From: Geobacteraceae bacterium
GTDB lineage: Bacteria; Desulfobacterota; Desulfuromonadia; Geobacterales; Pseudopelobacteraceae
Length of the DNA stretch: 39,623 nt
Direction of reading: 5' to 3'
Assembly: GCA_025355325.1 (NCBI GenBank)
Contig: JANXZX010000043.1
Span: 1-39,623 of the forward strand
Part shown: positions 1 through 39,623 of the stretch, in pieces
Position numbering within the stretch: the stretch's first letter is position 1
Layout: every line of letters begins with the position of its first letter
Translations under genes and position numbers: made by a program
Notes under the pieces: model-generated
Seen by the model: the letters and a program-made list of their open reading frames with translations, nothing else
Database searches by the model: none
What the model was told of the DNA's origin: nothing

Positions 1-113
1 GAGACAGAAAACTTGAAGAAGCCAGAGAACTGAGAAAACAAAAACGACAGCAAGCTTATTCTGAAATCAGGCATTCAGGGGAAACTTACTTACCATTAGA
101 TCAAGCGGCCTGA
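1..113 (+). CDS. C-terminal end of an unidentified protein (partial)
   Basis: The reading frame beginning at base 3 is open from the window edge to a TGA at 111-113 and encodes about 36 residues. The peptide is highly charged at first (several Lys/Arg/Glu, Gln-rich) and ends in LPLDQAA. Only the tail is present, so no domain can be named. It is followed 43-49 bp later by the MucR-like gene on the same strand, so the two may be co-transcribed. The call rests only on an open frame with gene-like composition at a window edge; it could be a chance ORF. Confidence 0.4.
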   Translation, partial: DRKLEEARELRKQKRQQAYSEIRHSGETYLPLDQAA

Positions 114-162
114 AAGTCCAATTCCGACTGAGGCGTTACAAGAGTTCCAGCAGGAAATGAGT

Positions 163-660
163 ATGATCTATTCATTCCTCAAAGGAGTGGAAACAGGGGA
201 TGTTCCTTCGACCCAAGCACCAGCAGAGGAGGCCAAACCTCAGAAGATAAACTTTAAGCAGTACTTCAAGAAAGATGAGGTAGTCTGTCTCATCTGTAAC
301 AAAGGCTTTAAAACCCTCAAGAGACATCTTGCTATAGCTCATGATCTTAAACCGGGAGCATATCGGAAACAGTTCAATATTCCTGCTAAATATAAGTTTG
401 TAGCTACTGCATATTCTGAACAGAGAAAGAAGGATGCTCTTGATAGAGGACAGGGAGAGATACTAGCTAAAGCCAGAGCTGTTCGTGCAGCAAAGAATGC
501 TAAGCCAGTTGTGGTTGCTGCACCAGTTGCACCGGCTGTTAAGGCAAAAGCAAAAGTAGTAAAGGCAAAAGCACCAGTTCCAGCAGTAAGAGTAAAACCT
601 GCTGTACCCGCTGTGAAAGTGAAAGCAGCTGTACCTGCTAAGGTAGCTAAGAAGAAGTAA
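163..660 (+). CDS. MucR/Ros-family zinc-finger transcriptional regulator
   Basis: Family role: DNA-binding regulators with a prokaryotic C2H2-type zinc finger. Counting from the ATG at 157, the finger ligands are C44, C47, H57 and H62, followed by the family block around GAYRKQFNIP and a basic stretch (YSEQRKKDA). I prefer the ATG at 163 because AGGAA (152-156) lies 6 bases before it, whereas it abuts the ATG at 157. The last 60 or so residues are a low-complexity Ala/Val/Lys/Pro tail of repeated PAVKVKA-like units ending in KKK, probably a disordered DNA-contacting tail. The N-terminal helical part usual in MucR is short. It sits in the AT-rich island, where such regulators often control mobile-element or surface genes; the targets here are unknown. 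Confidence 0.85.
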   Translation: MIYSFLKGVETGDVPSTQAPAEEAKPQKINFKQYFKKDEVVCLICNKGFKTLKRHLAIAHDLKPGAYRKQFNIPAKYKFVATAYSEQRKKDALDRGQGEILAKARAVRAAKNAKPVVVAAPVAPAVKAKAKVVKAKAPVPAVRVKPAVPAVKVKAAVPAKVAKKK

Positions 661-749
661 TCTGATTTCTGAACGAAATACTGATTTTACTATTGCCTGC
701 TTTTGTATTAGTCACATTTCCAATCCATGACATAGAAGGAACAGAAGTT

Positions 750-1115
750 ATGCCGATCATTTATACACTCTCAGGCCGCACAACATTTTCATATAGGGGT
801 AATGTGCCAAGTGGAGTTGTATTGGAGATGCAAAGCGAGTATGAAATATCCTCCGTGCTATTTAGTGCAGTCATAAACAGTTTTTCTGGATCAAGTGTAC
901 CTTTAGGTGCAAACATGACAGATCCTATTCGAGGTGGCTTGGGTGAGTGGACTGCTATAAACTCTAAGAATATAAATAAGATTAGTCTAACACCAAAACA
1001 CGCATCTTTTTTAGCTGCTATATTAGTTCACGAGGGATTTGCCACCAGCACTAAGGATGGAAATAGAATAATGTTGGTATTTCCGACTGTGGCAGGGAAA
1101 GTGATTGCTACTTGA
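750..1115 (+). CDS. Hypothetical protein, translationally coupled to the phosphatase
   Basis: Not recognised. The protein is 121 residues from an ATG at 750, which has an AAGGA at 736-740 with a 9-base spacer. A longer frame exists from a TTG at 693 but has no comparable ribosome site. The sequence is mixed alpha/beta in character, with no signal peptide, membrane segment or metal motif; a hydrophobic segment near HASFLAAILVHEGF is probably a buried helix. Its TGA (1113-1115) overlaps the TTG start of the next gene (1112-1114), so translation is probably coupled and the two products may act together. An accessory or inhibitor role is only a guess from position. Confidence 0.6.
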   Translation: MPIIYTLSGRTTFSYRGNVPSGVVLEMQSEYEISSVLFSAVINSFSGSSVPLGANMTDPIRGGLGEWTAINSKNINKISLTPKHASFLAAILVHEGFATSTKDGNRIMLVFPTVAGKVIAT

Positions 1116-1837
1116 GATATGCGATAGCTGATATTCATGGATGCAGTAAAACTTTTGAACGATTGCTTGCTAGATCAGGATTACGAAAGGCTGATACACT
1201 ATACTTGCTTGGTGATTATGTTGACCGTGGACCAGATAGTTGTGGTGTATTAACTCTTATAATGGAGTTGTTGGAAGGAGGATTTGATGTTCGCCCACTA
1301 AGAGGCAATCATGAAGAAATGATGCTATGTTCGTACAAACAGGCTCATGGCATTGATTCTGATTGGTGGACAGATGGTTGGCTAAGTGAATGGGGAATAG
1401 AAGTTGTCAAGTCTTTCGGGGTAAAGGAGCTTAGAGATATTCCTAACAGATTTTGGAAGTTCTTAGATGGATTGCCACTGACTAAAGAAACAGATGACTT
1501 TATTTTTGTACATGCTAGTCTTGACATAACAAAAAGTAATCCTGTTTGTGATACTGAGCCAAACACAATGCTTTGGGATAATTCATGGCATAGTGGTGGT
1601 GTTAATGGAAAAACAATAGTTAGTGGACATGTAGTGTGCACACTTAGTAAAATAAAATCAACAATAGATACTGGACACATACTGTTAGATAATGGCTGCT
1701 GTATGCCATATGAGAATGAGCTTGGCAGTCTGGTAATGTTAAACCTCGATACAAAGGAATTGCTAGTTCAGCCACTTATAGATAATTTAACAAATAGCTT
1801 ATATGATTCCTATATCATAAGTAACAAAATAACATAA
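1112..1837 (+). CDS. PPP-family metallophosphatase (ApaH/PrpE/PP1-like)
   Basis: A 241-residue calcineurin-like metallophosphatase. All core metal-binding motifs are visible in order: D7-x-H9 in DIHG, G34-D35-x-x-D38-R39-G40, G65-N66-H67-E68, a later FVHASL histidine, and an SGHVV histidine. Members hydrolyse phosphoserine/threonine or dinucleoside polyphosphates with a two-metal centre; the substrate cannot be told from sequence. The start is a TTG that overlaps the stop of the upstream gene, and it places DIHG at the usual distance from the N-terminus. The gene is AT-rich like the rest of the island and unlike the core genes to the right, suggesting acquisition with the island, possibly from a phage or plasmid. 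Confidence 0.88.
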   Translation: MRYAIADIHGCSKTFERLLARSGLRKADTLYLLGDYVDRGPDSCGVLTLIMELLEGGFDVRPLRGNHEEMMLCSYKQAHGIDSDWWTDGWLSEWGIEVVKSFGVKELRDIPNRFWKFLDGLPLTKETDDFIFVHASLDITKSNPVCDTEPNTMLWDNSWHSGGVNGKTIVSGHVVCTLSKIKSTIDTGHILLDNGCCMPYENELGSLVMLNLDTKELLVQPLIDNLTNSLYDSYIISNKIT

Positions 1838-1959
1838 AATGTTTAAACGAATAGATAAGCATTATGTTTGAGATATAAATTAATCTAAAATACTATATAT
1901 AAAACTTTATAATCATAAAATTAGCGTAAAATACAAATATATTTCTGAGTTGAGAGACA

Positions 1960-2178
1960 ATGGATTGGTTTGACTACCTAATAAAAGTAATAACTTTTGG
2001 AATACCGTTCTTCATGGGATTTTTTATAGCTCAAGGAATATTTAGCCCGCCAAAATCTTTTTCTTGTTCAGCTATGGATTGTTTCAATAATCATTGTAAC
2101 GAATGTAGTATTTTCAAAGATAACAAGTTCCCATCAATAAATAATCAGGGCAAATGTGATTATTACAAACAAAGTTAG
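1960..2178 (+). CDS. Small membrane protein with cysteine-rich tail
   Basis: A 72-residue unrecognised protein. Residues about 5-28 form one hydrophobic helix, followed by a hydrophilic tail with five cysteines (36, 41, 46, 49, 66) spaced like a small metal-binding or disulfide-rich knuckle. A GAGAG-type ribosome site lies just before the ATG. The 122 bp before it are very AT-rich and hold no visible gene, so the promoter is probably there. Its stop overlaps the stop of the convergent minus-strand gene by 4 bp. Confidence 0.5.
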   Translation: MDWFDYLIKVITFGIPFFMGFFIAQGIFSPPKSFSCSAMDCFNNHCNECSIFKDNKFPSINNQGKCDYYKQS

Positions 2179-2342
2179 AACTCTGTTGCATATACAACAA
2201 GCCCATGAAAATAGGTTTCAGGATATGGAATTGAATTACCTTTACATGATTGGACAGTTGATGGTAACTCTCTAGCTGTATACACTTTAGTCATGGAGTT
2301 TTCCATGTTCCGAATAGTTGCCATCTGCATTATATTATTCAT
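2175..2342 (-). CDS. Hypothetical 55-residue protein
   Basis: Not recognised. On the minus strand an ATG at 2342 is preceded by AGAGGTGAG, a near-perfect Shine-Dalgarno sequence 5 bases from the start. That is a much better start than the ATG 12 codons further upstream at 2378. The product (begins MNNIMQMATI, ends VVYATEF) has no membrane segment or obvious motif. It is the only minus-strand gene proposed in the island before the tRNA and converges on the small membrane-protein gene with a 4 bp overlap. The strong ribosome site is the main support. Confidence 0.45.
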   Translation of the reverse strand: MNNIMQMATIRNMENSMTKVYTARELPSTVQSCKGNSIPYPETYFHGLVVYATEF

Positions 2343-2469
2343 ACTCTCACCTCTTACAGAATCATTGAACAAATCCAATCTGCAGGTACTATATGGAACA
2401 TTCTGAGAGATACCATGACAATTTAAGGTTATGTGTACCTATTTAACATTCATTTGAAAGGGGGGTTAT

Positions 2470-2745
2470 ATGCAGGCAACAAGAGAACAACTAATAAATT
2501 TTCTTGAAGAAAGCGTCTTTTCACCAGTTGAGAATCATTTACTTGCAACTGAAGTAATAAAGAAAAAAATTCGAGCGACTAGAATGCGAATCAATAATAT
2601 GCAATCACCTGAAAAGGTCGAGGAGTTTTTCTGGAATGCAATGTCCACAGATAGGGGAATAGATAGCTATACTAGAATTAAAGAAATCTGTGATTTTACT
2701 TTTGAAGATGTTAGGGCTCAATTTAAGTCATTATGTGGAAGGTAG
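2470..2745 (+). CDS. Hypothetical 91-residue protein
   Basis: Not recognised. The ATG is preceded by AAAGGGGGG, a strong ribosome site. The product is predicted largely helical and charged, with no membrane helix, and begins MQATREQLINFLEES. It is separated by 102 bp from the T5orf172 gene downstream on the same strand and could share its transcript. Function unknown. Confidence 0.6.
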   Translation: MQATREQLINFLEESVFSPVENHLLATEVIKKKIRATRMRINNMQSPEKVEEFFWNAMSTDRGIDSYTRIKEICDFTFEDVRAQFKSLCGR

Positions 2746-2747
2746 CA

Positions 2748-2819
2748 ATGCCAAACACCATGCCCCATTATGGTTCTAGAAGGCATGAATGTGTCATATC
2801 AGCAAAAACAGGTGCTTAA
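2748..2819 (+). CDS. Possible micro-ORF (23 residues)
   Basis: An ATG at 2748 has GGAAGG (2737-2742) 5 bases upstream and reads 23 codons to a TAA. It fills most of the gap between the 91-residue gene and the T5orf172 gene. Such a leader could couple or attenuate downstream translation, but short ORFs with a decent ribosome site also occur by chance in purine-rich sequence. There is no homology evidence. Confidence 0.2.
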   Translation: MPNTMPHYGSRRHECVISAKTGA

Positions 2820-2847
2820 AAATAACAGCCTGTTAATGAGGTGAGTA

Positions 2848-3873
2848 ATGTCAAAAGCAGGATATATCTACGCACTTATTAACCCGTTGCTCGAAGGATC
2901 TGTAAAGATATGTAAATCAGCAACTAATCCTGAAAAGCAGGCAAACGATATATATTCAGATACTGCCGCTGGGGTCCCAACGCAGTCCCTTGTAGCCTAT
3001 AGTGTTCTCGTTACTGATTGTGACCTCGCAGAGAAGTATATTCACGGTCTTCTGGAAAAGAATGGTTGCCACATCGGGGTTAATCATGACTTTTTCCAGG
3101 CACCATTACCAGTTGTAATTGATGCTATCAATAATACTGCTAAATTTGTTGGGTCACTTACCGAAAGCCAGTTTCATCAAATATATAGTGACTCCTCTCT
3201 GGATGCAGCTGAAGAGGATTGTTGGCAAAACCCAGTAGTAGGCATGGGGCTTAGTAAGGTCACTGATATACGTAGTGTTTATCAGGTGAATCAAGCAAAC
3301 GTATCCGATGGCAGCCTGTGGGCTGCTGGTCTGAAGTCCAGTAGATCTTCCAGTTTTAATTCCAGAGTATTGTGTGTGGTAATTGCTTTAATTACTGGTG
3401 GAGTCATTCTCGCCGGTGTAAAACACAATGTGTACATTTCATCTGGGCAGGCAGCTAAGGATGCCGCTGATCAGAAGTCAAGGCAAGATTTAATTCAGCA
3501 ACAACAGCACAAAATAGCCGATGATCTAAAGGAGAAAAAAGAATCTGCACAAAGAGAAGAATCAACAAAGAGAATGGAGGCAGAGAAAACACAGAAAGCT
3601 ATTGAAGACCTATACAACCTGCGAGAGTCCGTGAAACATGCTTGTGAAGAAGAAGTGAGACGAGAAATGAAATATGAATGCACATTTTCTACAACGAACG
3701 CTAAATGGGGCATAACGGACGCTGGTTTTTGGGTCAATAAGAATTCGTTCTTGGTCAACGTTGGTGACTCCCATAAAAGTGCTTATTATTGTCTTGTCGA
3801 TGCAAGCAATGGGCAAAATGGAGTATTTATCGTCAAGAACTTGAATATTGGAATGACGCCAGAGTTTTACTAA
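2848..3873 (+). CDS. T5orf172 (GIY-YIG-like) domain protein with membrane anchor and coiled coil
   Basis: A 341-residue protein. Residues 4-88 match the T5orf172/MUG113 pattern, a GIY-YIG nuclease relative: GYIYAL at 5-10, VKIC at 19-22, AEKYIHGLLE at 61-70 with the Glu and His of the family, and DFFQAPL at 81-87. The position where GIY-YIG enzymes usually carry the catalytic Arg reads Lys-Gln (30-31), so activity is doubtful. Residues 173-192 form one membrane helix, 205-275 are a Lys/Glu/Gln-rich probable coiled coil, and the last 65 residues form an unrecognised domain with cysteines at 278 and 315. The ATG has AGGTGAG just upstream. The membrane-tethered arrangement is unusual; a defence or DNA-processing role for the island is inference. 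Confidence 0.7.
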   Translation: MSKAGYIYALINPLLEGSVKICKSATNPEKQANDIYSDTAAGVPTQSLVAYSVLVTDCDLAEKYIHGLLEKNGCHIGVNHDFFQAPLPVVIDAINNTAKFVGSLTESQFHQIYSDSSLDAAEEDCWQNPVVGMGLSKVTDIRSVYQVNQANVSDGSLWAAGLKSSRSSSFNSRVLCVVIALITGGVILAGVKHNVYISSGQAAKDAADQKSRQDLIQQQQHKIADDLKEKKESAQREESTKRMEAEKTQKAIEDLYNLRESVKHACEEEVRREMKYECTFSTTNAKWGITDAGFWVNKNSFLVNVGDSHKSAYYCLVDASNGQNGVFIVKNLNIGMTPEFY

Positions 3874-4228
3874 ATCTCGTAAGCTTCCCTGTCAAGCAGA
3901 CAGTTTAACTATCTAAAGCTGCTAAGAAGAAATGAGTGTATCCATATTGTGAACCAATATTCTCATTTCAATTCAAAATGACCTTTTGACCGATATTGGC
4001 ATATTGGAATTCTGACTTTCTATTTCACTCACCTGCTACCCCCACCCTCTGAATATATCAAATTGAAGCATATCTCGAAAAGTCTGGTATTCAATATATA
4101 ACATTCCATCACTCATATACTGCTTGACCCCACCCCTCAGAATTAAGAGACATTGCCATCCGGCGGTGTTTCTTTTTTATTTTCGCCAAGCAAAGACTGC
4201 AAGTCACCCAATCGAAGAAGGTAACACC
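3874..4228. other. Gene-poor AT-rich interval
   Basis: No convincing gene is seen in these 355 bp. Two things stand out. At 3916-3936 a short frame reads SKAAKKK followed by TGA, resembling the Lys/Ala-rich end of the MucR-like gene at 163-660, possibly the remnant of a second copy. Around 3950-4010 there are several CCAATAT/ATATTGG half-sites in both orientations. The last 100 bp presumably hold the promoter of the following small gene, but no clear -35/-10 pair could be assigned. Confidence 0.35.
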
Positions 4229-4501
4229 ATGCAAGTCAAGGCGGAGGAAGTCATGTGGAAGAACATCAAGCATCTTGCAAAAGCAGCAGGGAACATCGTA
4301 GCAATCAGTTATGCAGAGACGGCATATCGTCTCAATCAAGTATCAGACTCAACAGAAAGCGTAACAGCCAAACTGGAAGCAAAGACAGAAGCACTCCGTA
4401 AGTCCTATGAGCAGAACCTTGCTGATAGGAAATCCGGAGTAATCAAACCTGAGGTAGTATCCGAAGAATCAACACCCAAGGACATCGTACCAGTCAACTA
4501 A
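4229..4501 (+). CDS. Hypothetical 90-residue helical protein
   Basis: Not recognised. The ATG at 4229 is preceded by AGAAGGT, a reasonable ribosome site; the in-frame extension back to 4124 runs through gene-poor sequence and is not credible. The product is Ala/Glu/Lys-rich and probably a long helix or coiled coil (core segment around SVTAKLEAKTEALRKS), with a polar C-terminal tail. No membrane segment. It is followed by a terminator hairpin, so it is probably monocistronic. A structural or DNA-associated accessory protein of the island is possible but not shown. Confidence 0.55.
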   Translation: MQVKAEEVMWKNIKHLAKAAGNIVAISYAETAYRLNQVSDSTESVTAKLEAKTEALRKSYEQNLADRKSGVIKPEVVSEESTPKDIVPVN

Positions 4502-4519
4502 CATCCAGCATCACCAACT

Positions 4520-4566
4520 GGCAAAAGGGATAGATTTCCGCAAGGAGACTGTCCCTTTGCCTTTTC
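4520..4566 (+). terminator. Rho-independent terminator after the 90-residue gene
   Basis: GGCAAAAGGGA (4520-4530) pairs with TCCCTTTGCC (4552-4561) with one bulged A, and is followed by TTTTC. It lies 19 bp after the stop codon. Confidence 0.65.
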
Positions 4567-4571
4567 AAGCG

Positions 4572-4699
4572 TGAGACACTTGTGACATTGAGACACGCAG
4601 AAATAATTGTAATTCGAAAAATGGATCTTGGTCTTTCAGAACTCAGCATAAAAACCGAATCGTGTTTTTTACCAATGTCTCAGTGTCACGGATGTCTCA
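4572..4699. repeat. Inverted pair of composite TGAGACA/GTGACA sites
   Basis: Left site, plus strand: TGAGACA at 4572-4578, GTGACA at 4582-4587, TGAGACA at 4589-4595. Right site, read on the minus strand: TGAGACA at 4699-4693, GTGACA at 4689-4684, TGAGACA at 4682-4676. Spacers are identical in both (3 and 1 bases), so a 24-bp composite site is present twice as an inverted repeat around an 80-bp AT-rich core. The exact conservation of spacing argues for a protein-binding array, such as a replication initiator, recombinase or repressor site. Confidence 0.7.
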
Positions 4700-4726
4700 G
4701 AAAAAAACACCCACCACCCCTCACAA

Positions 4727-4895
4727 ACTCCCTACCACTCTCTACCTCTCGCTTAAAGCCGCATGGAATAAGGCTTTTGTCTGGTAGGGAGTCAAGTAGG
4801 GAGTTGAATTGCCTTGTAACTCTCCACCAGCACTCACCCCAATAAAACATAGCAATATCAGCAACTCTTGAGAGTAGTAGGGAGTGGTAGAGAGT
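4727..4895. repeat. GTAGGGAGT-type iteron cluster
   Basis: GTAGGGAGT occurs directly at 4784-4792, 4796-4804 and 4877-4885, and as GTAGAGAGT at 4887-4895. The inverse, ACTCCCTAC followed by CACTCTCTAC, occupies 4727-4745, and a one-mismatch inverse copy lies near 4818-4828. The stretch between has no convincing gene. The iterons lie directly before, or within the first codons of, the RadC-like gene. Confidence 0.6.
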
Positions 4896-5353
4896 TATGG
4901 GAGTACCCGCACCTAAAAAACAGAACAACACGACAGGCGCTTTCCATAAATGAAGACATTACCAGTTATCTGAAAACCGGAACCCGCTATACATCACCTC
5001 AGCAGATATACGACACATTCTCATTCCTGATTCAGGAGACAAAGGAAATGTTCATCACAGTTCACCTTGACGGTAAGAACCGGATTCTCTGTATGGATAT
5101 TGTGTCAATCGGATCGCTAAACCAATCGATAGTAAACCCAAGGGAAGTGTTCAAGACTGCATGCCTATCAAGCGCAGCAGCTATCCTGTGTATCCACAAT
5201 CACCCTACAGGAGACCCAACGCCATCAAGTGAGGATATCGCCATTACCAGACGACTTAAGGAGGCAGGGGATATTTTATCAATAAAGGTTTTGGACCATA
5301 TCATTATCGGTGACGGAGAGTATTTGAGCTTTGTAGAGAGGTGTTTACTGTAA
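4868..5353 (+). CDS. RadC-like JAB/JAMM domain protein
   Basis: A RadC/DUF2466-family protein with an MPN+ metal site: HNHPTGDPTPSSED carries the HxH...D ligands, downstream of NPREVFK and followed by LLDHIIIGDG-like sequence (here VLDHIIIGDGEYLS). RadC relatives of about 150 residues are common cargo of plasmids, prophages and islands; despite the name a role in DNA repair is not established. The start is uncertain. The only in-frame usual start before the conserved region is TTG at 4868, which lies inside the iteron cluster. An ATG at 4897 in another frame gives only 18 codons before a stop next to the same segment. Either the start is TTG, or the 5' end has been altered by a frameshift. 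Confidence 0.85.
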   Translation: MRVVGSGRELWEYPHLKNRTTRQALSINEDITSYLKTGTRYTSPQQIYDTFSFLIQETKEMFITVHLDGKNRILCMDIVSIGSLNQSIVNPREVFKTACLSSAAAILCIHNHPTGDPTPSSEDIAITRRLKEAGDILSIKVLDHIIIGDGEYLSFVERCLL

Positions 5354-5434
5354 CCATCCGATATCACATTGTTATTGTAATGGTCGTTTAATAAATAATC
5401 GATCTGAATAGATAGTTGTCTTACGCACGAAAGA

Positions 5435-5638
5435 TTGAATCTGAATAATTACGATAGAGCTTCAGTTGAACTGGGTCATAAATTTGAGAGAAGGGAGGAG
5501 GTGGCAAAAATATTGATGATTTCGGCAGAAATATGTTCGGAGATAAAAAACCGCAGTATCCATGCCAAAATAAACATTGAGGAGATAGCTACACTAACGC
5601 ACTCCGTTTGTTTCCTCGCTCCTCAAAGCAAACGATAA
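5435..5638 (+). CDS. Possible small protein (start uncertain)
   Basis: An open frame of up to 67 residues with no recognised family. The region contains GGGAGGAGG at 5493-5501, a strong ribosome-site-like sequence, upstream of in-frame TTG (5513) and ATG (5516) codons, so the real product may be only about 40 residues (beginning MISAEICSEI). The spacing of 11-14 bases is longer than ideal. The peptide looks helical and charged. It is the last candidate gene of the island before the tRNA; no integrase motif is visible in it. Confidence 0.3.
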   Translation: MNLNNYDRASVELGHKFERREEVAKILMISAEICSEIKNRSIHAKINIEEIATLTHSVCFLAPQSKR

Positions 5639-5743
5639 ACCCGTTTGCATTTCGTCACGAGGGGTTTTAAGGCTGGTAATACTATGCAACTGTACTGAGT
5701 TTTACAGGGCTATGACTCTGCGAATTGATGCAACACTGATACA

Positions 5744-5783
5744 ACAGAAAAAAGAAAGCACCTACGATTTCTCGTAAGTGCTT
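5744..5783 (-). terminator. Terminator of the tRNA-Phe gene
   Basis: Read on the minus strand, a 12-bp stem (5772-5783 with 5756-5767, one G-T pair) with a 4-base loop is followed by TTCTTTTTTCTG. It begins 9 bp past the tRNA CCA end. Confidence 0.8.
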
Positions 5784-5791
5784 GATTTTAG

Positions 5792-5867
5792 TGGTGCCCA
5801 GGGACGGAATCGAACCGCCGACACGAGGATTTTCAATCCTCTGCTCTACCGACTGAGCTACCTGGGC
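5792..5867 (-). tRNA. tRNA-Phe (anticodon GAA)
   Basis: A complete 76-nt cloverleaf can be read on the minus strand: acceptor stem GCCCAGG paired with CCTGGGC, D-arm AGCTCAG, anticodon stem GAGGA/TCCTC with loop TTGAAAA (anticodon at 5832-5834 on the plus strand), T-arm containing GGTTCGATTCC, and an encoded 3' CCA at 5792-5794. It stands at the switch from AT-rich accessory DNA to core-like sequence, and tRNA 3' ends are common integration sites. Confidence 0.97.
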
Positions 5868-14669: not shown

Positions 14670-16790
<2,121 letters not shown>

Positions 16791-39412: not shown

Positions 39413-39481
39413 CCAAAGAAAATATTTTATCTGCGTCGTCCACGTTCTCTGTGCCATTCATCCTAAAATCGGCAATTCATG

Positions 39482-39623
39482 AACCACAGAGCAACTGAGC
39501 AACAGAGGAATCAAACAGTTACATCAACAACAGGCATAACCAAAATGGTGAGTTATTATTTATGGTTTTAACCTGAATTCTTCTTTGTTTTTTGCTCAGT
39601 TGCTCAGTTGCTCTGTGTTTCAA
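39482..39623. repeat. Inverted repeat with CAGAGCAACTGAGCAAC ends
   Basis: CACAGAGCAACTGAGCAAC (starting 39486) recurs inverted at the window end: 39592-39623 reads TTGCTCAGTTGCTCAGTTGCTCTGTG. About 85 bp of AT-rich DNA lie between. The right arm contains an extra CAACTGAG unit. It looks like a small non-autonomous repeat element, cut by the window edge. Confidence 0.6.

Follow-up and report, generated by a model that had tools for sequence, protein, structure and literature searches.

The window, by which we mean the whole 39,623-nucleotide stretch of DNA analysed here (contig C63 of a genome of 241 contigs, taken from that contig's first base), carries at 4572-4699 a pair of mirrored composite sites that we regard, with good confidence, as a replication-origin array of the SaPI/PICI type. 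The array consists of two oppositely oriented sets of short iterons around a moderately AT-rich core, in a relative of the same genus a DUF927 gene has a near-identical array directly behind it, and inverted iteron arrays are associated with DUF927 genes across the class. The array is an orphan, as no initiator gene was found beside it or by genome searches for DUF927 and DUF3987. We infer that the three short iterons of each arm would bind a DUF927 initiator helicase (SaPI Rep / Cch) as two facing complexes, one per arm, between which the 80-bp core would be melted, and that the helicase would then start replication of the excised island. The first-pass annotation had proposed a protein-binding array in a mobile region, with an origin as one of several options; the general idea is supported and an origin is now the best of these options, with binding as a prediction.

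Anatomy of the composite site

The spaced motif TGAGACA-N3-GTGACA-N-TGAGACA is present once on each strand with no mismatch, exactly at the coordinates first given for an inverted pair of 24-bp sites. The earlier remark that the spacer lengths are conserved and the spacer bases are not is borne out in full, since all 20 motif positions are identical between the arms and the four of the 24 positions that differ (8, 9, 10 and 17) are all of the spacer bases. The enclosed stretch is exactly 80 bp as described, and its A+T richness, noted at the same time, is moderate only. The parts of the site are as follows.

4572 to 4595, forward strand: left arm, iterons TGAGACA, GTGACA and TGAGACA, spaced 9 and 8 bp
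4596 to 4675, no strand: core, candidate melting region, 80 bp, 66% A+T
4676 to 4699, reverse strand: right arm, the three left-arm iterons inverted (spacings 8 and 9 bp), with one change in 24 relative to the array of G045:C731

None of 100 dinucleotide shuffles contained a copy of the motif, even with up to three mismatches allowed. The rest of the genome (241 contigs) holds no further copy with up to two mismatches, and the single extra match at up to three is a 3-mismatch place on contig C95. A grammar test, in which three sites spaced 8-9 bp are sought on both strands with one mismatch allowed (maximum score 6), was applied to the window in 263 overlapping tiles of 300 bp. The maximum is reached in a single tile, the one with the 4572-4699 site; two tiles score 5, and one of 200 shuffles of 4560-4860 likewise scores 6. 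A cruder test on exact 6-mers gives this region a borderline result, with p about 0.04. The two mechanical ORFs that run over the arms (4582-4845, forward; 4686-4931, reverse) matched no family in a Pfam search.

A same-genus DUF927 gene with a near-identical array downstream

With up to two mismatches, the motif is found in three of 76 family genomes, viz., the genome of the window, G014 and G045. The G014 match, which by eye lies inside a coding sequence that looks like that of a pilus ATPase, was set aside as probable chance. In G045, an uncultured Geobacteraceae bacterium (contig C731, taken to be CAIYZD010000731.1), the 24-mer equals the right arm of the window with one change, spacers included, and the array begins 7 bp past the stop codon of a DUF927 gene that encodes 676 aa. 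The same contig also encodes a Prim-Pol/DUF5906 protein, and a further ORF starts behind the array. The layout is compact in this relative, with a 6-bp gap and, by eye, diverging arms, as against the window's arms around 80 bp. Sequence searches with the G045 DUF927 protein against the PDB found 5dgk ('Active helicase', 1.5e-17) and 8tch ('Pathogenicity island protein', 3.2e-13), which we presume to be SCCmec Cch and SaPI Rep, respectively. No relative of this protein was found in the viral contigs scanned, and tblastn against phage records gave 19 matches with an identity of at most about 32%. A MucR-like protein had been put forward as a candidate binder of the motif; nothing ties MucR to it, and in G045 the near-identical 24-mer follows a DUF927 gene.

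Inverted iterons follow many DUF927 genes across the class

DUF927 is present in 35 of 277 class genomes at 43 places. From these, 30 loci were obtained, and after removal of two whose longest ORF fell short of 450 aa the analysis covered 28. An exact-word test, which asks whether a single 6-mer recurs in inverted copies over the first 300 bp past the stop codon beyond what shuffles give (p<0.01), identifies inverted iteron arrays within 300 bp downstream of 16 of these 28 genes, against 0/28 in coding stretches and 0/26 at 301-600 bp downstream. Two more genes show a weaker signal (L092, p 0.12; L104, which is the G045 locus, p 0.047), and for 10 of the 28 an array within 300 bp downstream is absent by the same test. 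The array words vary by gene and include GGTAAC, GGTGAC, GTGACA, GGGAAC, GGAACA and others. When words were picked by hand at 17 loci, a procedure that yielded no arm for L104 and L106, the within-arm spacing was 9 bp in 47 of 78 cases and 8 bp in 13, together 60 of 78. In the grammar test, 12 of the 28 DUF927 flanks reach 6 and four more score 5, the G045 locus being among the latter, and the score of 6 is reached in none of the controls (0/28 coding stretches, 0/26 at 301-600 bp downstream, 0/22 downstream and 0/19 upstream of RadC genes, one of the upstream flanks scoring 5). The RadC controls derive from 29 loci, of which seven in which the gene was not located were excluded and three more had less than 300 bp upstream.

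Arrays beyond the class

A loosened pattern identified 25 stretches in the genome collection, seven of which have a DUF927, DUF3987 or Toprim-type gene adjacent. Five of them, from Chloroflexota (L018, L024, L027, L028 and L040), share a DUF927-type gene family whose stop codon is followed by the array at a distance of 36-37 bp; L018 and L024 are assigned to DUF927 by Pfam, and the proteins of L027, L028 and L040 are 73-86% identical to that of L024. The others are the G045 locus (L033) and L022 from Herpetosiphon, in which the adjacent gene is of Toprim type and for which a matching viral contig (L043) has a DUF3987 gene that ends 165 bp from the array. L036 is similar, by eye, to L018 around the arrays. 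Near the other 18 stretches, no primase-helicase was recognised when neighbour ORFs were compared by BLASTP with six reference proteins, nor when a single ORF from each of L017, L023, L029 and L030 was scanned with Pfam. About ten of those 18 are arrays in mostly Bacteroidales genomes. Arrays of the TGTGACAGTTGTGACAGTGTGACA type (L017, L025, L031, L032, L034, L035, L038 and L041), again mostly from Bacteroidales, lie outside recognised primase-helicase surroundings, and several of them adjoin AT-rich stretches and housekeeping-like genes by eye. The pattern is also found in six viral contigs, one of which repeats the Herpetosiphon sequence, against none for a reversed control pattern; for three of the six viral arrays, the gene 254-263 bp upstream belongs to a single large family that is poorly characterised.

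Comparison with known origins

According to the available part of the source (PMC7581432), the Rep protein of SaPIs recognises an iteron origin directly downstream of its own gene, and Cch contains DUF927 and is related to the Rep of SaPIbov1. The array at 4572-4699 resembles SaPI/PICI origins with a SaPIbov1-type Rep, to the extent that the accessible descriptions cover them, in that two oppositely oriented sets of short iterons enclose an AT-rich region, and the nearest relative of the array, in G045, shares with them the position directly 3' of a DUF927 gene. The array differs in that it has no adjacent rep gene, in that the genome around it has no DUF927 or DUF3987 match, in the second, differently worded inverted array that adjoins it, and in its host, which is Geobacter-like to judge from the same-genus record CAIYZD010000731.1. 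Because the site does not lie directly behind a rep gene, we do not class 4572-4699 as a member of the PICI/SaPI origins. The origin of SCCmec cch2 is comparable in that it belongs to the initiator helicase of an integrated element and has direct repeats just behind the gene; it differs in that, in the accessible portion of the text, direct repeats alone are needed for Cch2 binding and 'AT-rich' is not mentioned (PMC7581432), and the island part of the window, unlike SCCmec, has no recognised recombinase or cch-type gene. The oriV of SGI1 is likewise an island origin with iterons downstream of rep, but its direct repeats are four in number and 17 bp long, and it has a putative DnaA box (PMC7433901). 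A DnaA box beside the iterons, as in the origins of iteron plasmids, is absent from the window in its exact form (TTWTNCACA) near 4500-4910. The literature searched, outside which most subscription papers lie, contained no account of such arrays in this bacterial group and no paper pairing DUF3987 with iterons.

The island and the initiator

The array lies in a part of the contig with the following features.

1 to 141, no strand: end of a multi-copy repeat common to the starts of contigs C239, C86, C107 and C6
4229 to 4501, forward strand: small ORF upstream of the arrays, function unassigned (ATG at 4229 inside the ORF 4124-4501)
4520 to 4561, forward strand: terminator-like inverted repeat after this ORF, by eye
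4868 to 5353, forward strand: RadC/JAB-domain ORF, with the arrays just upstream
5792 to 5867, reverse strand: tRNA-Phe, whose 3' end faces the island and which is a likely attachment site

Two further partial matches to the 3' part of the tRNA-Phe are present on contig C2 (56 bp at 100% and about 90 bp at 90%), and the 56-bp match adjoins an ORF, integrase-like by eye, that runs off the contig start and that we infer to be linked to the window's island. Given the tRNA-Phe at 5792-5867 and these partial copies, one of them beside the integrase-like ORF, positions 1-5790 probably belong to an island at this tRNA. On C2 (L009) the copies lie at 1150-1207 and 16589-16678; the roughly 15 kb between them contain ORFs that by eye are vsr-like, methylase-like and HipA-like, and this region probably represents tandem islands at one tRNA.

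The island part on the contig amounts to only about 5.8 kb and cannot be followed past base 1 of the window, because 1-141 is a multi-copy repeat found at contig starts, probably the end of an insertion sequence. Pfam scans of eight island ORFs revealed one ROS/MUCR protein, one calcineurin-like phosphoesterase and one RadC protein, with five lacking a match above the cut-off; no helicase or primase is among these eight, nor did we see a recombinase or a cch-type gene in as much of the island as the contig contains. The ORF at 2848-3873 (341 aa) is a good match to two PHROGs of unknown function, and the only phage match found by Blastn with 3900-5400 was weak and 34 bp long. The other end of the contig, 39479-39623, is formed by an inverted repeat whose arms, each about 36 bp long, lie about 73 bp apart.

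The genome, rated 99.84% complete, has no match to DUF927 or DUF3987, the two families searched. No relative of the G045 DUF927 protein was found in it either, in a search that had no positive control and hence shows little. It does encode one D5_N/DUF5906 primase-helicase, on contig C43, and directly 3' of this gene lies a similar inverted iteron array (L145, 4880-5260) built on the word TCGGAGA; since this word differs, we argue that the C43 helicase is not the partner of the window's array. The Rep of the island may be encoded on the part of the island missing from this contig, may have been lost, or may be supplied in trans by another element.

The second of these possibilities would make the site a dead origin, i.e., the relic of a satellite or integrative element without its lost rep gene. 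We consider this a real possibility, if somewhat less than an even one, and it is compatible with the origin reading, as it concerns present activity. It would account for the missing DUF927 and DUF3987 matches in so complete a genome, and agrees with the repeat end at 1-141 and with the start of the RadC ORF, for which the sole ATG, GTG or TTG ahead of the domain is, by eye, a TTG inside the region of the second array. The intact motif positions in both arms, among spacers that differ at every base, speak against a long-dead site and suggest upkeep until recently.

A second inverted array adjoins the first

The neighbouring iterons mentioned in the first-pass annotation are real and constitute a second inverted array at 4726-4904 (array 2), which adjoins the first and has 10-bp units (GGTAGGGAGT/GGTAGAGAGT).

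4726 to 4750, reverse strand: outer left arm, units ACTCCCTACC and ACTCTCTACC
4783 to 4805, forward strand: inner units GGTAGGGAGT and GTAGGGAGTT, seen in the sequence and aligned with relatives
4872 to 4904, forward strand: outer right arm, units GTAGGGAGT, GGTAGAGAGT and TATGGGAGT

Array 2 could be aligned with three copies from G037 over about 170-190 bp with a mean column identity of 79% (four sequences, some gapped), and its core pattern, with one mismatch allowed, occurs in nine of the 277 class genomes. In six genomes (G012, G013, G021, G028, G038 and G047) this pattern forms part of the 3' coding end of genes from a single family, represented in G038 by a fragment only, whose proteins carry by eye a P-loop-like GKSRTGKS. 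This protein has no match in Pfam, PHROGs, NCBIfam, PDB sequences, plasmids, phages or viral contigs, and the structure predicted for it is unreliable (mean pLDDT 35.7); none was found in the genome of the window, again by a search that lacked a positive control and shows little. In G047, single array 2-like units are present on contig C93 behind an ArdC-like ORF and before radC, by eye. A match of array 2 to Lactococcus plasmids (36 bp, E 0.03), which lies among polysaccharide genes in the one record inspected, was dropped as chance. One guess is that array 2 is a second origin.

On contig C380 of G037 (L138, 7458-7922), a partial and a full copy of array 2 flank an orphan array of the first type, with iterons near GTCTGG and a core of 80 bp (70% A+T). 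This makes at least two instances of the pairing found in the window. No helicase ORF was recognised beside this array, with one neighbour scanned; a small ORF, AlpA-like by eye, follows it. The pairing of an orphan 80-bp-core array with copies of array 2 leads us to consider a rep-less satellite that keeps two origin arrays, 4572-4699 for a DUF927-type initiator and 4726-4904 for a second initiator family, and that would rely for its replication on an initiator provided in trans by any other element that happens to be there. We think such an arrangement unlikely.

The downstream RadC gene and other readings of the site

The SaPI/PICI-type origin reading is also to be weighed against one in which the mirrored sites are the target of an island repressor or activator that would control the radC-like gene downstream. 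The arrays do lie just upstream of the RadC ORF, array 2-like units are seen by eye upstream of the RadC relatives L051 and L052, and copies of array 2 in G037 also lie upstream of surface-protein-like genes. However, the RadC upstream flanks never reach the maximum array score, and in G045 the motif directly follows the DUF927 gene, though the further ORF there does start behind it, so that we hold an operator to be improbable. The motif does not track RadC islands as had been suggested, for it is confined to three of the 76 family genomes (one match probably due to chance), against RadC relatives in 70 of them, a count that includes ordinary chromosomal radC. RadC relatives are also present in viral contigs (12 loci) and on plasmid pPRO1.

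An oriT, a resolution or recombination site, or a structured single-strand element is the least probable reading in our view: both arrays are inverted repeats, and 4560-4910 as single-stranded DNA folds better than all 100 shuffles (z -4.2), but such a fold is expected of any long inverted repeat, the direct 8-9 bp repeats within the arms are left unexplained, and the gene linked to the closest relative is a DUF927 helicase. For none of the alternatives named at the outset, i.e., oriT, resolution site or operator, did we find specific support.

Implications for mobile elements

The survey shows that many DUF927 helicase genes of the window's class, and some of Chloroflexota, have mirrored-iteron arrays like the origins described for PICIs, and that the iteron words differ between helicases. 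A practical rule, viz., a DUF927 gene and then inverted iterons, holds for 16 of the 28 genes tested, and DUF927 together with inverted 8-9 bp iterons would provide a testable rule for finding origins across mobile elements. The orphan array of the window may in turn offer a cheap test of whether islands borrow the initiator of another element.
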